DNA of 47,563 bases from an uncultured Alphaproteobacteria bacterium (GTDB lineage Bacteria > Pseudomonadota > Alphaproteobacteria > Caulobacterales > Caulobacteraceae): NCBI GenBank assembly GCA_903892305.1, contig CAITHQ010000013.1:1-47563 (forward strand). Reading direction: 5' to 3'. The notes under the pieces were generated by a model. The model was not told the origin of the DNA and ran no database searches. It worked only from the letters and a program-made list of their open reading frames with translations. A program made the position numbers and the translations under genes. Position 1 is the first letter of the stretch; each line of letters begins with the position of its first letter. This document shows positions 38,859 through 47,563 of the stretch, one piece after another.

Positions 38859-40082
38859 ATGGCCGATTTCGGCGGTAGCGATCTCGAGGCGTTTCGCGTC
38901 GAGGCGCGCGCGTGGCTGCAAGACAACTATCCTCCGGAATTGCGCGGGCCGAACGCCCTGACAGATCCTGAAGCCATTTGGGGCGGACGGACATTTGCCG
39001 GGTCATCTGATCCTCAGATCAAATGGATGAATGCTATGGCCAGTCGCGGCTGGACCGCGCCAGTTTGGCCAAAGGCTTATGGCGGTGGCGGGCTGAGCCC
39101 GGAGGAAGGTCGCGCCCTCGATCAAGAATTGACCGCAGGACGCTACCGGGATCCCCTAGCCTCCTTTGGCGTCTGGATGCTGGGTCCGGTCCTGCTCGAA
39201 TATGGCACTGAGGCTCAGAAGGCCGAACACATCCCAGGCATCGTCCAGGGCAAGTATCGCTGGTGCCAGGGTTATTCCGAACCCGGTGCTGGATCCGACC
39301 TCGCCTCACTGCAGACCAAGTGTGAAGACAAGGGCGATCACTGGCTCATTAATGGCCAGAAGATTTGGACCTCCTATGCCAATAAGGCCGACTGGTGTTT
39401 CTGTCTGGTCCGAACCGACACCAGCAAGAAGCACGAGGGAATTTCCTTCGTCCTGATCGATATGACCACCCCCGGCGTAGAGACCCGGCCCATCCAGCTG
39501 ATTTCTGGCGAAAGCCCATTTTGCGAGACCTTCTTCACCGATGTGAAGATTCCCAAGGCCAATCTGATCGGTCAGGTCAATGGCGGCTGGGAAATCGCCA
39601 AGCGCCTGCTCCAGTATGAGCGGCAGAATATTTCAGGTGGTTTTGGTGGCGGCGGCGGCGCAGGCGGCTCGGCGGGCGATCTTGGCCAGATTGCCAAATC
39701 CTACCTTGGCGCTGACGAAACCGGGGCTTTGGCAGATGTAGATCTGCGGTCTCGGATTACGCGGAACAAGATGGACTTTGACTGCTTTTATAAGACCATC
39801 TCTAGGGTAGCGGCGGAGTCAAAGTCGTCAAATGGCCCATCTGCAGCAACATCGATCATAAAGTATGCGGCGGCGACCTTCGCCCAAGAGCGCTCTGAAT
39901 TGATGATTGAAGCCATGGGTGCTCAGGGCCTCGGGTGGGAGGGCGAGACGTTTTCAGCCCAGGAGCTCGCTGCCACCCATGGGTGGCTGAGATCCAAGGG
40001 CAATTCGATCGAGGGCGGGACTTCGGAAGTCAATGTGAATGTGGTGGCCAAGCGCGTGCTTGGCTTGCCAGATCCTAAGTAG
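38859..40082 (+). CDS. Acyl-CoA dehydrogenase, tandem copy 1 (sub-pair A)
   Basis: 407 aa; GYSEPGAGSDLASLQTKCEDKGDHWLINGQKIWTS, RLLQYERQNISGGFGGGGGAGG, NSIEGGTSEVNVNVVAKRVLGLPDPK. Confidence 0.95.
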   Translation: MADFGGSDLEAFRVEARAWLQDNYPPELRGPNALTDPEAIWGGRTFAGSSDPQIKWMNAMASRGWTAPVWPKAYGGGGLSPEEGRALDQELTAGRYRDPLASFGVWMLGPVLLEYGTEAQKAEHIPGIVQGKYRWCQGYSEPGAGSDLASLQTKCEDKGDHWLINGQKIWTSYANKADWCFCLVRTDTSKKHEGISFVLIDMTTPGVETRPIQLISGESPFCETFFTDVKIPKANLIGQVNGGWEIAKRLLQYERQNISGGFGGGGGAGGSAGDLGQIAKSYLGADETGALADVDLRSRITRNKMDFDCFYKTISRVAAESKSSNGPSAATSIIKYAAATFAQERSELMIEAMGAQGLGWEGETFSAQELAATHGWLRSKGNSIEGGTSEVNVNVVAKRVLGLPDPK

Positions 40083-40094
40083 GACGGAAAGCAA

Positions 40095-41306
40095 ATGGCG
40101 GACTTCGGCGACGTAGAGTCAGACACCTTCAGGGCAGAGGCCAGCACTTGGCTTGCCGCTCATTTCCCCGCGAGCCTGAAAAAGGACCCGATGGCCCAAC
40201 TCGCTGCCATGGGTGGCGGCAAAGAAAGCCCTGACGCAAAGGCTTGGCGCGAGGCCATGGGTGCCAAGGGCTGGGGCGTACCGACTTGGCCCGCACAATA
40301 TGGCGGCGGCGGCCTGAGCCGACCACAGGCGCGGATTCTTGCCGAAGAAATGGCTGCGATTGGTGCCCGAAATCCGATTGGCGGCATGGGCGTGATGATG
40401 TTCGGCCCCACCCTGATCGAGTACGGAACCGAGGAGCTTAAGCAACAACACATGCCGGGGATCGTGACCGGCTCGGTGCGCTGGTGCCAGGGATATTCCG
40501 AACCGGGATCAGGATCAGACCTCGCGTCGCTGCAGACAAGAGCCGAGGACAAGGGCGATCATTATCTGGTCAATGGCTCGAAAATCTGGACCAGCGGGGC
40601 CAATCTTGCGGACTGGTGTTTCTGTCTGGTGCGGACAGATACGGCCAAGAAGCACGAGGGTATCAGCTTTCTGCTGATCGACATGACGGCACCGGGCGTC
40701 GAGGTCCGTCCTATTTTGCTGATCAATGGGACCTCTCCCTTCTGCGAGACCTTCTTTACAGACGTTAAGGTCCCGAAAAACCAACTCTTTGGCCCCCTAA
40801 ATGGCGGTTGGACCGTTGCCAAACGCCTGCTGCAGTTTGAGCGGGATAATATCTCCGCAGGTCTTGGCGGTGGCTCTATCGGTGCGCCCATCTCAGCCCT
40901 TACCGTCAAGCAGTCAGCGGTGGACTATGTGGGACTAGATGCGACTGGGCGTTTGACCGACGCTGATCTGCGTCGCCGCATTACGGATCATCAAATGGAG
41001 GTGCACGCCTTCCAAATGACCGTTCGGCGGGCTGCTGATGAAGCGCGAGCCGGGAATGGCCCATCTGCCGCGACCTCAATTATGAAGTATGCAGGCGCCA
41101 AGATTGCTCAGGATCGCAATGAGCTCATCGTTGAGGCCCTTGGCCAAAATGGCTTGGGGTGGGAGGGTGACGATTTCGCAGGCCCTGAATTGGCGGCTGT
41201 GCGCACCTGGCTCAGGTCAAAGGGAAATTCGATTGAGGGGGGGACATCGGAAATCAATCTGAATGTCGTCTCCAAGCGGGTTCTGGGACTTCCAGATCCG
41301 AAATAG
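40095..41306 (+). CDS. Acyl-CoA dehydrogenase, tandem copy 2 (sub-pair A)
   Basis: 403 aa; GYSEPGSGSDLASLQTRAEDKGDHYLVNGSKIWTSG, RLLQFERDNISAG, NSIEGGTSEINLNVVSKRVLGLPDPK. Confidence 0.95.
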   Translation: MADFGDVESDTFRAEASTWLAAHFPASLKKDPMAQLAAMGGGKESPDAKAWREAMGAKGWGVPTWPAQYGGGGLSRPQARILAEEMAAIGARNPIGGMGVMMFGPTLIEYGTEELKQQHMPGIVTGSVRWCQGYSEPGSGSDLASLQTRAEDKGDHYLVNGSKIWTSGANLADWCFCLVRTDTAKKHEGISFLLIDMTAPGVEVRPILLINGTSPFCETFFTDVKVPKNQLFGPLNGGWTVAKRLLQFERDNISAGLGGGSIGAPISALTVKQSAVDYVGLDATGRLTDADLRRRITDHQMEVHAFQMTVRRAADEARAGNGPSAATSIMKYAGAKIAQDRNELIVEALGQNGLGWEGDDFAGPELAAVRTWLRSKGNSIEGGTSEINLNVVSKRVLGLPDPK

Positions 41307-41376
41307 CCGACTCCACCTTGGCGCTATTTTGTGCCAGGGTAATCACTAAAATATTGAATATTATGGAGAATTTGAA

Positions 41377-42585
41377 ATGGCGGATTTTGGTGGCGGCGAA
41401 CTAGACGCCTTTCAAGCCGAAGCAGCGCAGTGGCTTGACGAAAACTTCCCCAAGTCGCTGGGTAAGGACCCAGAGGCCCTTCTAGCCCTGGTCATGTCGC
41501 CGGCCGAAGCCGCAGGCGACTACAAGCTCTGGAAAGAACGCATGGGCGCAAAGGGCTGGGGCGTCCCGACCTGGCCCAAGCAATATGGCGGCGGCGGTCT
41601 GTCACCAGCTGAGGCCCGGGTTCTGCAACAGGAAATGGCCAAGGTCGGCGCCGTCAATCCGATTGGCGGTATGGGTGTTGGCATGTTCGGTCCGACCCTG
41701 TTGGAATACGGCACCGAAGAGCAGAAAATGCGCTACATCCCGGATATCTGCACCGCCAAGGTGCGCTGGTGCCAGGGTTTCTCCGAGCCAGGTGCCGGAT
41801 CGGATCTCGCATCCCTGCAGACCAGGGCCGAAGACAAGGGCGACCACTTCCTCGTGAATGGCTCCAAGATCTGGACCTCAGGTGCGCAGTATGCGGACAT
41901 GATTTTCTGCTTGGTGCGGACCGACACCAGCAAGAAACACGAGGGCATTTCCTTCGTTGTCTTCTCCATGCGTGACCCCGGGGTCGATATCCGCCCGATC
42001 AAGCTGATCGCTGGCAATTCACCCTTCTGCGAAACCTTCATCACTGATGTGAAGGTGCCCAAGGAAAATCTGATCGGTCCGCTCAATGGCGGCTGGAGCG
42101 TTGCTAAGCGCCTGCTGCAGCATGAGCGATCGGGCATGAATGGTGCCCGTGGCGCCCCTGGTGCCGAACCGGCCCTGGGCGTTGTGGCTAAAAAGTACAT
42201 AGGTGAAGACGCCCATGGCCGCCTGGCTGACACAGATCTGCGGACGCGGATTGTCATGAATGAGATGGACAAGCGCGCCCTGGCTCAGACCGTCCGCCGT
42301 GCAGCCTTGGAAGCCAAGGGCAATTCAGGCCCGAGCGCCGCGACCTCAATCCTCAAGAACGCCAATATGAAGACCATGCAGGACCGTGCGGAACTGACCT
42401 TGGAATTCATGGGTCATCAGGGCCTGGGCTGGGAAGGCGATACCTTTAGCGAAGAGGAACTGGCAGCAGTCCGCGGCTGGCTTGGCGGAAAGGCTGGCTC
42501 CATCTACGGCGGATCCAACGAGGTTCAGTCCAACATCATCTCTAAGCGCATTCTGGGCCTGCCCGACCTGACGCAGAGCCACTAG
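41377..42585 (+). CDS. Acyl-CoA dehydrogenase, tandem copy 3 (sub-pair B)
   Basis: 402 aa; GFSEPGAGSDLASLQTRAEDKGDHFLVNGSKIWTSG, RLLQHERSGMNGA, GSIYGGSNEVQSNIISKRILGLPDLTQSH. Confidence 0.95.
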   Translation: MADFGGGELDAFQAEAAQWLDENFPKSLGKDPEALLALVMSPAEAAGDYKLWKERMGAKGWGVPTWPKQYGGGGLSPAEARVLQQEMAKVGAVNPIGGMGVGMFGPTLLEYGTEEQKMRYIPDICTAKVRWCQGFSEPGAGSDLASLQTRAEDKGDHFLVNGSKIWTSGAQYADMIFCLVRTDTSKKHEGISFVVFSMRDPGVDIRPIKLIAGNSPFCETFITDVKVPKENLIGPLNGGWSVAKRLLQHERSGMNGARGAPGAEPALGVVAKKYIGEDAHGRLADTDLRTRIVMNEMDKRALAQTVRRAALEAKGNSGPSAATSILKNANMKTMQDRAELTLEFMGHQGLGWEGDTFSEEELAAVRGWLGGKAGSIYGGSNEVQSNIISKRILGLPDLTQSH

Positions 42586-42639
42586 TTGGGGTAGGGTGAT
42601 CCCTATTACCCAGATACTTATTATTTGAAGGAGTTTCAT

Positions 42640-43842
42640 ATGGCCGACTTTGGCGGCAGTGATTTAGAGGCCCTTCGATCCGAAGCCCGCGCTTGGATCG
42701 AGGCGAATTTTCCGGCGGAGCTCAAGGGCCGCCCCAACCCGATGATGCGGGAAGAGCGCTCGACCCCGAGCGCGGCTCAAGAAGCCTGGCGCAAGGCCAT
42801 GGGCGACAAGGGATGGGGCGTTCCCACCTGGCCGGCCCAATATGGCGGCGGTGGACTTTCGGCTTCAGAAGGCCGTGTGATTCAGCAGGAGCTCGGGCGC
42901 GCCGGTGCCTATAATCCGATCGGCGGCATGGGCGTGATGATGTTTGGCCCGACCCTGCTGGAATATGGCACCGAAGCCCAAAAGCAAGAGCACATTCCAA
43001 AGATCGTTAAGGGCGAAGTTCAGTGGTGCCAGGGCTTCTCAGAGCCCGGCGCAGGCTCAGACCTGGCGGCTCTGTCCACCAAGTGCGAAGACAAGGGCGA
43101 TCATTTCCAGATCAATGGTCAAAAAATCTGGACCAGTGGTGCCCAATTCGCCGACTGGTGCTTCTGCTTGGTCCGCACGGACACCAGTAAGAAGCACGAA
43201 GGGATTTCCTTCGTCCTCTTCACCATGCATCAGCCGGGCGTAGAAGTTCGGCCCATCCCGCTCATCGCGGGCAATTCACCCTTCTGCGAAACCTTCTTCA
43301 CCGACGCCCGCGCCGAAAAGAAGGACTTGGTCGGACCGCTGAACGGTGGCTGGACCATTGCCAAGCGGTTGCTGCAACATGAACGGGGCGGCCTCAGCGG
43401 CGGCGGCGGTGGCTTTGGCGGCGGTCGCGGCCTGGTCGAGCTGGCGAAGCACTATGTGGGCGTCGATGATCAGGGACGTATCGCGGACCCAGACCTTCGG
43501 ACCCGCATTACTGCCCTCGAAATCGAAGGCCGTTCCTTCCAGCAGACCGCTGTTCGCGCCATGTTGGAAAGCAAGGGCAATTCGGGCCCAAGCGCGGCGA
43601 CCTCGATCATGAAGAATGCCGGCACCCAGTGGATGCAGGCCCGCCACGAAATCACCCTCGAAATCATGGGTCATCAGGGCCTGGGCTGGGAGGGCGAAGA
43701 CTTTACAGCTGAGGAGCTCGGAGCCGTCCGCGGTTGGCTCGGCGGCAAGGCCTTCACCATTTATGGCGGCTCTCAGGAAGTGCAATCCAACATCATCTCA
43801 AAGCGGATCCTTGGTCTGCCAGACCTGACCCAGCACACCTGA
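42640..43842 (+). CDS. Acyl-CoA dehydrogenase, tandem copy 4 (sub-pair B)
   Basis: About 400 aa from MADFGGSDLEALRSEARAW; GFSEPGAGSDLAALSTKCEDKGDHFQINGQKIWTSG, RLLQHERGGLSGGGGGFGGGRG, FTIYGGSQEVQSNIISKRILGLPDLTQHT; track ORF begins at 42625. Confidence 0.95.
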   Translation: MADFGGSDLEALRSEARAWIEANFPAELKGRPNPMMREERSTPSAAQEAWRKAMGDKGWGVPTWPAQYGGGGLSASEGRVIQQELGRAGAYNPIGGMGVMMFGPTLLEYGTEAQKQEHIPKIVKGEVQWCQGFSEPGAGSDLAALSTKCEDKGDHFQINGQKIWTSGAQFADWCFCLVRTDTSKKHEGISFVLFTMHQPGVEVRPIPLIAGNSPFCETFFTDARAEKKDLVGPLNGGWTIAKRLLQHERGGLSGGGGGFGGGRGLVELAKHYVGVDDQGRIADPDLRTRITALEIEGRSFQQTAVRAMLESKGNSGPSAATSIMKNAGTQWMQARHEITLEIMGHQGLGWEGEDFTAEELGAVRGWLGGKAFTIYGGSQEVQSNIISKRILGLPDLTQHT

Positions 43843-43920
43843 TCCCTTCACACTTGCAAAATCTTGGGGGACCGCAGAGGCCCCTCATCCACACACGAAT
43901 AGACTAGAGGAAACAAAGAA

Positions 43921-45057
43921 ATGGCCGTTCTGAACGAAGAACAAAGCATGCTCCGCGACGCCGCCAAGAGCTGGACTCAGGAAAAGAGCCCGGTGACGGC
44001 ATTTCGTAAGATGCGCGACAGTGGCGTGGAAGTCGGCTTCGATGCCGCGGCCTGGACCGAAATGGCCGAGATGGGCTGGGCTGGGGTTATCATCCCCGAA
44101 GAGTTCGGTGGGTCCGATTTCGGCTATCTTTCCATGGGCTTGATCCTGGAAGAACTGGGCCGCACACTGACCGCATCGCCCTTGCTGGCCTCAGGGCTTG
44201 GTGCCGCTAGCGCCCTCGTGCTCGGCGGCACGTCCGCACAAAAGTCCGAGTGGCTGCCCAAGATCGCTGAAGGCACCGCCATCGGCGCCCTGGCCGTTGA
44301 CGAAGGCGCTCACCATGCCCCTGAAAAGGTTGCCCTGGCCGCCACCAAGTCGGGTGCGGGCTACAGCCTGTCGGGCACCAAGACCTTTGTGCTGGAAGGT
44401 CTTGCCGCCAATGTCCTGATCGTTTCGGCTCGTACCTCAGGTAAGCCTGGCGATAAGGACGGGATCACCCTGTTTGTTGTCCCCGCCGATGCAAAGGGCA
44501 TTAGCCGTAAGCGTCTTGCCCTGGCCGACAGCCGTGGTGGTGCAAACATTACCTTCGATAAGGTCGAGGTCGGTGCCGACGCCGTGCTTGGTGAAGCCGA
44601 TAAGGGCTATCCGGTTCTGGAAAAGGTCCTCGACCGCGCCCGGGCCGGCATCAGTGCTGAAATGCTCGGTGCCGCTGTGCAAGCCTTCGAGACCACACTG
44701 GACTACCTTAAGGTTCGCGTTCAGTTTGGTCAGGTGATCGGGTCCTTCCAGGCCCTGCAGCACCGGGCGGCAAAGATGTTTACGGATCTGGAACTGGCGC
44801 GCAGCGCTGTGGAAGCGGCCTTGACCGCCATCGACAATGATAGCCCAGACGTTCCCGAACTGGTCAGCCTCGCCAAGGCCAAGATGGGCGACGTGTTCCA
44901 CGTCGTATCCAACGAAATGGTCCAGATGCACGGCGGTATAGGCATGACCGACGCCCATGACGCTGGCTTCTATCTGAAGCGGGCCCGGGCCTGCGAAGCA
45001 GCCTATGGCAGCCAGAGCTATCACCGCGATCGCTATGCGCGCATTCAAGGCTACTAA
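43921..45057 (+). CDS. Acyl-CoA dehydrogenase family protein, divergent fifth member
   Basis: 378 aa; GWAGVIIPEEFGGSDFGYLSMGLILEELGRTLTASPLLASG, LDYLKVRVQFGQVIGSFQALQHRAAKMFTDLELARSAVEAAL, QMHGGIGMTDAHDAGFYLKRARACEAAYGSQSYHRDRYA. Confidence 0.94.
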   Translation: MAVLNEEQSMLRDAAKSWTQEKSPVTAFRKMRDSGVEVGFDAAAWTEMAEMGWAGVIIPEEFGGSDFGYLSMGLILEELGRTLTASPLLASGLGAASALVLGGTSAQKSEWLPKIAEGTAIGALAVDEGAHHAPEKVALAATKSGAGYSLSGTKTFVLEGLAANVLIVSARTSGKPGDKDGITLFVVPADAKGISRKRLALADSRGGANITFDKVEVGADAVLGEADKGYPVLEKVLDRARAGISAEMLGAAVQAFETTLDYLKVRVQFGQVIGSFQALQHRAAKMFTDLELARSAVEAALTAIDNDSPDVPELVSLAKAKMGDVFHVVSNEMVQMHGGIGMTDAHDAGFYLKRARACEAAYGSQSYHRDRYARIQGY

Positions 45058-45266: not shown

Positions 45267-47270
45267 ATGAGCCTGCTCCTCGCTGTGGCCCAAGCTGTGC
45301 TAGCTGTCGGTACCGTTCCGGCTGCGACCGGCGTGGTGGATTACCCCACGGCATACTTCGAAGCCGCACACCCAACATCGGCCCGCGATATGCTGGACCG
45401 TATTCCAGGCTTTACCTTCGATGGCGGTGTCAGCGTCCGCGGCTATGAGGGCGCAGCTGGAAACGTTCTAGTGGATGGTCAGAGACCTGCGGCCAAGACC
45501 GACACCCTCGACGCCATCCTGCGCCGGATTCCAACCACCAGCGTTGCGCGTATTGAAATCATCCGTGGCGGTGCCTCTGGGGTCGACATGCAGGGCCAGA
45601 GTGTTCTGGCAAATGTGGTGCTCAAGCGGGAAACGTCTCGGACCCTCCAGATTAGCTCGGCAGCGACATATCTGACCAGCTCAGGACTGATCGTTCCCCA
45701 AGTACGCATGGTGGGGACGGGGCAAGGTAACGGCCGCAAATGGGACTTCAGCCTATTGGCCGGCAAGTATGTTGATGGCTCCTATGGCGATGGCCCGACC
45801 CTTAGAACCAATGGGAAGGGTGTGACCACCCAAACGGGGTATTCGCAATCCAAAGCCGTCGGGGGAACCTACCAGGCCACCGGGGCCTACGAGACGGCAT
45901 TTGCGGGCGGGCGTCTCAAGGTCAATGGGCTGATGCTAAGCGCGCCCTATGATGATGATATTTCCAACCGTACCCTCACGCCGCTGAACGCCCTGGAAAG
46001 GGAACATGTCAGCATTGATGCAGACAGCTCTGAATTAGGTATCAGGTTCAGCCGGCCCCTTGGGGTCCGATCGTCCGTGGAATTTGTGGCCCTGCGGCAA
46101 GCCAAGGACACTGAATTCAGCGACCGGGTCAGGAACCCCTCTACGGTCATTGATTTCGACCAGCGTTCCAAAACGGCAGAGAATATTCTGCGGGGCATCG
46201 TCAAGCAGAAGCTATCCCCGACCCTGGCCTGGGAATTTGGCCTCGAGGGGGCACAAAATACCCTGCGCAACCGCCTTACCTATTCGGAAAATGGTCAGAA
46301 AATTACCCTGCCCAGCGCCAATGTCACCGTGACCGAAAATCGCTATGAGGCGATTGCAAAAGCTTCCTGGTCGCCCAATCGCCAATGGACGGTGGAAACA
46401 GATATCCGGCAGGAGCTCTCAGACATCGCCTCAGAAGGCGATACGGTGCTGTCAAAATCCCTCAGCTACACAAAGCCACGCCTGGCCGTGAAATGGTCCT
46501 ATGCCGACGGCAATCAGATCCGACTGCGCCTAGAGCGGGAAGTCGGCCAGCTGAATTTTTCAGACTTTACGGCATCGTCAGCGCTGAAAAATGGCCTGGT
46601 AACGGCTGGTAATCCAAGTCTCGTTCCAGAGCAGAGCTGGGTGACGGAGATCACATCCGAACACCAGGTTCTTAAACGCGGTGCCGTTTTGGTGACAGGA
46701 CGGCATATTCAATTGTCCAATGTCATAGACCGGGCGCCGATTTTTACGGCTACAGGTGCCATAGACTCCCCGGCCAATATCGGATCAGGAACGAAGGACG
46801 AGGTGGCAATTAATGCGACCCTGCCCTTGGACAGTTTTGGGGCCAAGGGCATCCAGTTTCAGTCCAATGTGACCTGGCGGCGATCCCGCGTGACCGACCC
46901 GACGACCCACGCTGAGCGCAGCATTTCTGGACTGCCCGATAAGGTTTGGGACGCCTCGATGACCTGGGACCTGCCCGAGCGAAACCTAAACCTGACCCTG
47001 GTGCTGGCCGAAGAGATGAAGTCGACAAATTATCGCTTCAATCAGGTGGAGACCCTCAAGGTCGGATCCTTTCTCAGATTTGTCGCCGTCTGGACGCCAG
47101 ACCCAAAGACCCTGGTGCGGCTCGATCTGTACAATCTAACCCGACAGCCGATCAGCTATAAGAATGAAGTCTTTAGTGGCGCGCGGTCGAACTCTGGTCT
47201 CCTCTATCGAGACTATCGCCAAGAGAGTCTTGGCAAGTTTGTTGCGATCGCGGTTCGCCGCAGTTTCTGA
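45267..47270 (+). CDS. TonB-dependent receptor / outer membrane beta-barrel protein
   Basis: 667 aa; signal peptide; plug-like ARDMLDRIPGFTFDGGVSVRGYEGAAGNVLVDGQRPAAKTDTLDAILRRIPTTSVARIEIIRGGASGVDMQGQSVLANVVLKR; C-terminal Phe (LGKFVAIAVRRSF). Confidence 0.9.
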   Translation: MSLLLAVAQAVLAVGTVPAATGVVDYPTAYFEAAHPTSARDMLDRIPGFTFDGGVSVRGYEGAAGNVLVDGQRPAAKTDTLDAILRRIPTTSVARIEIIRGGASGVDMQGQSVLANVVLKRETSRTLQISSAATYLTSSGLIVPQVRMVGTGQGNGRKWDFSLLAGKYVDGSYGDGPTLRTNGKGVTTQTGYSQSKAVGGTYQATGAYETAFAGGRLKVNGLMLSAPYDDDISNRTLTPLNALEREHVSIDADSSELGIRFSRPLGVRSSVEFVALRQAKDTEFSDRVRNPSTVIDFDQRSKTAENILRGIVKQKLSPTLAWEFGLEGAQNTLRNRLTYSENGQKITLPSANVTVTENRYEAIAKASWSPNRQWTVETDIRQELSDIASEGDTVLSKSLSYTKPRLAVKWSYADGNQIRLRLEREVGQLNFSDFTASSALKNGLVTAGNPSLVPEQSWVTEITSEHQVLKRGAVLVTGRHIQLSNVIDRAPIFTATGAIDSPANIGSGTKDEVAINATLPLDSFGAKGIQFQSNVTWRRSRVTDPTTHAERSISGLPDKVWDASMTWDLPERNLNLTLVLAEEMKSTNYRFNQVETLKVGSFLRFVAVWTPDPKTLVRLDLYNLTRQPISYKNEVFSGARSNSGLLYRDYRQESLGKFVAIAVRRSF

Positions 47271-47311: not shown

Positions 47312-47342
47312 CCAAAAAAAGAGGGCACCCAAAGGTGCCCCC
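47312..47342 (-). terminator. Rho-independent terminator of the minus-strand repeat gene at the window edge
   Basis: Stem gggcacc (47323-47329) / ggtgccc (47334-47340); on the minus strand followed by TCTTTTTTT (A7 at 47314-47320). Confidence 0.8.
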
Positions 47343-47425: not shown

Positions 47426-47563
47426 CTAGAAAGGCGAAATGCTGCCATAGCCGGTGATGACAGGCGAAATGCTGCCATAGCCGGTGATGACAGGCGAAAC
47501 GGCACCGTAGCCGGTGATAACAGGCGAAACGGCACCGTAGCCGGTGATAACAGGCGAAACGGC
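47426..47563 (-). CDS. 3' end of a gene encoding tandem decapeptide repeats VITGYG[AS][VI]SP; N-terminus outside the window
   Basis: Minus-strand reading from the edge: AVSP-VITGYGAVSP-VITGYGAVSP-VITGYGSISP-VITGYGSISP-F-stop (stop at 47426-47428). Three of five altered codons between unit types are synonymous; the other two are conservative (V/I, A/S). Confidence 0.75.
   Translation of the reverse strand, partial: AVSPVITGYGAVSPVITGYGAVSPVITGYGSISPVITGYGSISPF
47432..47563. repeat. 30-bp tandem direct repeat, four full units plus a partial unit running off the window
   Basis: 2x aggcgaaatgctgccatagccggtgatgac, then 2x aggcgaaacggcaccgtagccggtgataac, then aggcgaaacggc. Confidence 0.97.

Follow-up and report, generated by a model that had tools for sequence, protein, structure and literature searches.

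The final bases of a draft-genome contig hold a short tandem repeat that stays open on the minus strand up to the last letter. Does this repeat belong to a gene and, if it does, what kind of protein would that gene encode? The window, the whole 47,563-nucleotide stretch of DNA analysed, is the entire contig C13 of genome G000, a draft of 334 contigs.

Repeat array and reading frame

Tandem Repeats Finder reports a period of 30, about 4.3 copies, 94% matches and zero indels over positions 47432-47561. The array consists of four full 30-bp units and 15 bp, and is open on the minus strand, where it forms the end of a gene:

47426..47563, minus strand: 3' portion of the decapeptide-repeat gene with its last 45 codons: AVSP at the cut end, then four units of VITGYG[AS][VI]SP type and a final F; the 5' end lies beyond the contig end

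Minus-strand translation of 47429-47563 gives AVSPVITGYGAVSPVITGYGAVSPVITGYGSISPVITGYGSISPF, which reads as AVSP, two VITGYGAVSP units, two VITGYGSISP units and a terminal F, followed by the stop codon TAG at 47428-47426. The 30-bp period, the open minus strand and the SPF-stop ending described in the initial annotation agree with the output of both the repeat finder and the translation. That annotation also spoke of exact decapeptide repeats; this holds between adjacent copies and fails across the whole array, in which there are two unit types. Our recount agrees that the two types differ at six bases. Read in the minus frame, these change three codons synonymously and replace two amino acids conservatively; the only open plus frame would carry four replacements and a single synonymous change.

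Each of the three minus frames is free of stops over the array, and the proposed frame is singled out by its substitution pattern and by its relatives in other genomes rather than by openness alone. Among the distinct units of the three species in which we found the gene, synonymous and replacement changes stand at 133:171 in the proposed minus frame. The other five frames give 27-38 : 266-295 in four cases and 113:209 in the fifth, which contains stops. Codon changes across the three species thus favour the proposed frame over the other five, and as the pair counts are not independent we read them as support rather than proof.

Complete homologues, neighbourhood and the assembly break

A protein search of 60 related genomes yielded the first relative, on contig C73 of genome G003 from the same genus. 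It is 87 aa long and consists of MTMGKSTLKTIAACAAFAAVSALAGAANAGEAS followed by TNWGGISPLA-type decapeptides. A genus search with this protein found a second homologue, of 83 aa, in G075, a genome of the same genus assembled as one contig. The proteins of these two sister species are complete and 79% identical, and in each a signal peptide, judged by eye, leads directly into about five decapeptides of the form TNWG[NSG][VI]SPLA. Against the G003 protein the repeats of the window score E = 5e-8, and they match a profile at 3.5e-20, although the window itself was part of that profile. All three species repeat T, G, S and P at ten-residue intervals, with the exception of one longer G003 unit that has N for S. 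The final residue is F in the window, V in G003 and N in G075; a role for the terminal F as an outer-membrane insertion signal was ruled out, as F is not kept in the relatives.

These homologues bear out the initial annotation in proposing a translated, selected minus-strand protein: they have the frame, a start codon, a Shine-Dalgarno-like sequence and the signal peptide that it had suggested looking for, and a terminator-like hairpin follows the stop. Both keep the minus frame, where broken copies in relatives had been named as a possible outcome. The recent expansion of units that it proposed gains support in the window and in G075.

The stand-alone gene was found in only 3 of the 392 family genomes. 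Other family profile matches, in the g16 and g24 genomes, are unrelated: they fall on the wrong strand of a gene with Pro-Asp-Arg repeats or hit ordinary signal peptides. Three class-level matches at 4e-4 to 9e-4 were treated as background. A candidate on G057:C24 proved to be an unrelated RPYGDRP-repeat protein; it is encoded at positions 874-2778 of locus L004, and its long DRPYGDRPR-type array, open in several frames, produced the false match.

Synteny places the window gene with its relatives. The order in G075 is enoyl-CoA hydratase, an 86-aa secreted-looking protein, the repeat gene, a convergent TonB receptor and acyl-CoA dehydrogenases. In the window the dehydrogenases are followed by the receptor, which is 71% identical to its G075 counterpart and whose gene converges with the repeat gene:

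45267..47270, plus strand: TonB-dependent receptor with plug and beta-barrel; convergent to the repeat gene and its syntenic neighbour in G075

In G003 the hydratase adjoins the repeat gene; the receptor, at 67% identity, occupies the end of another contig. With the same neighbours and a significant sequence match, the window gene falls into the syntenic orthologue group that the G003 and G075 genes define; the halves of the G000 locus lie on two contigs and are joined by synteny only. Other neighbours include an LPG synthase. At window positions 38859-45057 five consecutive genes encode acyl-CoA dehydrogenase-like proteins, one of 378 aa and the others of 402-407 aa (three were checked with Pfam), and such genes also stand in a row in G075. 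The small secreted-looking protein between hydratase and repeat gene (L037 6363-6620, minus strand; L051 226-492, plus strand) has 86-89 aa and four conserved cysteines, and gave no Pfam match. Identity to the relatives is about half in the repeat units of the window, 67-71% in the receptor and 93% in the G000 hydratase; the greater divergence of the units than of the neighbouring genes is consistent with homogenisation within each lineage.

The initial annotation took the gene to be cut by the window edge. It is indeed cut, and the edge is a contig end rather than an arbitrary cut: the array stops where the assembly stopped, broken at the repeat. The hydratase side of the locus forms the end of another G000 contig, C242, and its hydratase is the one 93% identical in amino acids to that of G075. 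C242 also carries the small protein and ends in the upstream region, where its similarity to G075 stops about 40 bp short of the contig end. Judging from synteny with G075, C13 and C242 are presumably adjacent in the genome, and by the same comparison the part missing from G000 covers about 0.3 kb upstream of the gene as well as the signal peptide and a number of units. A search of the G000 assembly with the G003 upstream and signal region recovered nothing of this 5' part, and the assembly holds no second copy of the array. The start codon and signal peptide expected for the window's own copy would lie outside the assembled sequence.

The regions upstream of the G075 and G003 genes are nearly identical over about 48 bp ending in TTGACTCTA:

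L037 7038-7085, plus strand, and L040 653-700, minus strand: 48-bp upstream stretch, GATAGTTTCCATAGGTTGAAAAAACA.GGTTACCA.GAATTGACTCTA, almost identical in the two species

This stretch contains TTGACT-18-TAG[GT]AT (TAGGAT or TAGTAT), and AGGGAG stands shortly before the ATG. It occurs once each in G075 and G003; it is absent near the G075 subtilase genes and from the three other genomes searched, among them the gap-bearing G000. Possibly it is a regulator site or a promoter. On the downstream side the window has two hairpins:

47321..47342, minus strand: predicted intrinsic-terminator-like hairpin, a consensus match, with 9 pairs, a loop of 4 and a run of seven T, about 85 bp downstream of the stop codon
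47387..47408, minus strand: second hairpin, between stop codon and terminator, with a weak T tail

An analogous terminator-like hairpin with a T run follows the repeat gene in G075; the G003 hairpin, read by eye, has a longer loop and seven T.

The encoded protein and alternative readings

We consider it probable that the end of the window is the C-terminal end of a small Sec-exported decapeptide-repeat protein, perhaps 80-90 residues long, with its own promoter and terminator. The protein would consist of a signal peptide and then a short array of x-x-T-x-[WY]-G-x-[VI]-[SN]-P decapeptides. The gene would be expressed, the product would leave the cytoplasm by the Sec pathway, as the signal peptide seen by eye in the homologues suggests, and it may act, in the periplasm or extracellularly, as a flexible protein of low complexity. 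The same repeat motif would also be in use as an N-terminal array in secreted S8 subtilases of this bacterial family. Change in the array would come from whole 30-bp units being duplicated and homogenised; the frame is then kept and only protein length altered. As a 30-bp unit changes length and keeps the frame, the array is not an on/off switch, and the suggestion of a phase-variable repeat protein in the initial annotation does not fit it.

That the regular repeats, with their aromatic-Gly and Ser-Pro turns, form an exported structural protein, such as a beta-solenoid or an amyloid-like envelope fibre or adhesin, seems to us quite unlikely. The relatives have only about five units, and their terminal residues do not provide an outer-membrane barrel signal. 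AlphaFold, given the G003 protein and an alignment of only two sequences, predicts a helix over the signal peptide and repeats with no order and no strands (mean pLDDT 43, repeats 30-37); this is weak evidence that leaves room for a fold in the repeats, and as far as it goes it speaks against the beta-solenoid first proposed for this DNA. The repeat could instead be a non-coding minisatellite, open on the minus strand by chance. Its adjacent units are identical, a short repeat with a multiple-of-three period is easily open by chance, and all three minus frames are indeed open. The complete homologues, with start codon, signal peptide, conserved upstream region and terminator, and the cross-species changes that fit one frame largely refute this reading, to which we give very little chance. 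We think as little of a multi-core RiPP-like precursor, also raised in the initial annotation, from which decapeptides would be cut out, exported and perhaps re-imported by the adjacent TonB receptor. The near-identical short units, the conserved T, G, S and P and the adjoining receptor would suit it; the repeats directly follow the signal peptide with no leader, we saw no modification enzyme, protease or transporter gene adjoining the repeat gene, whose neighbours are acyl-CoA dehydrogenases, the enoyl-CoA hydratase, the TonB receptor and the LPG synthase, and of the 101 genus genomes 97 have related receptors, while almost none of these 97 has the repeat gene.

The remaining alternative concerns the secreted S8 subtilases of the same genomes, with which the protein could work as a stand-alone [YFW]G[NS][VIL][SNQ]P[LVF] array that binds, competes or co-assembles. 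A profile that includes the decapeptide proteins matches the N-termini of G075 subtilases at 2e-8 and 2e-6, a match that may reflect low complexity. Both kinds of protein use GNVSPL in G075; the G003 decapeptide protein has one WGSLNPV, a unit of that species' subtilase-type array; and PV or PF is the usual ending of both kinds in G000. This within-species likeness of the units is suggestive, but it comes from only three species and is beyond statistical testing. Of the 392 family genomes, 31 matched a heptapeptide-array query, including a few weak matches, and all three genomes with the decapeptide gene have such an array, but no stand-alone protein was found in the 28 other genomes that match. 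The periods differ (10 against 7), the genes are unlinked in G075, and gene conversion between the subtilase arrays and the decapeptide gene was rejected, with no convincing shared DNA and at most 17 bp in common. We regard a partnership with the subtilases as unlikely. Its more specific form, a stand-alone decoy or partner of the cell's own subtilase arrays that would co-evolve with them within each species and control protease export or activity, we hold to be decidedly improbable.

Among the functions put forward in the initial annotation, a small secreted or envelope repeat protein is the one left. The small exported decapeptide-repeat protein that we favour is a minor, lineage-restricted and ordinary kind of object, limited to a small clade and without a description in the libraries searched. 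Taken alone the finding is modest. Small genes like this one are broken in draft assemblies and overlooked by gene callers; synteny recovered it here, and it draws attention to the little-noticed N-terminal heptapeptide array in secreted subtilases of this bacterial family.

Comparison with known families

Searches against Pfam, NCBIfam, PHROGs and PDB sequences gave no significant match, that of the G003 protein against Pfam included, and our literature searches found no papers on these repeats. The Pfam Ice_nucleation repeat (PF00818) shares a GYGS string with the window repeat, but the match is weak (15.2 bits against a cut-off of 27, E = 0.017), its best stretch covers ten residues, and repeat length and architecture are different. 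Multi-core RiPP precursors carry several near-identical short units in one small protein. The decapeptide protein resembles them in its repeated units and differs in having a Sec-type signal peptide, with no leader before the units and no modification genes seen.

The nearest likeness is to the N-terminal heptapeptide arrays (YGNVSPL, WGDIQPF, YGNISPF) of secreted S8 subtilases (PF00082) from the same bacterial family. Secreted proteins with N-terminal arrays of FGSVQPV, WGSLNPV and YGNVSPL are encoded at L041 (G000:C99, 4203-4685), L039 (G003:C392, 1714-2091) and L038 (G075, three minus-strand ORFs); those of G000 and G003 also lie at contig ends, and Pfam confirmed a Peptidase_S8 domain in one G075 array protein. 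In G075 the heptapeptide is constant despite wide variation in its codons, a pattern that speaks for selection acting on the peptide. Subtilase and decapeptide genes are found in the same genomes. In both kinds of protein a signal peptide, seen by eye in G003 and G075, precedes short tandem repeats of aromatic-Gly-x-[VIL]-[SNQ]-P, of which the window copy retains the repeat part, and G-x-[VI]-[SN]-P is the core that they share with the decapeptide array. They part in the period, 7 in the subtilases and 10 in the decapeptide gene, and in what comes after it: the subtilase array leads into a large peptidase, whereas the G003 and G075 proteins end after their repeats and the window copy ends at its stop codon.
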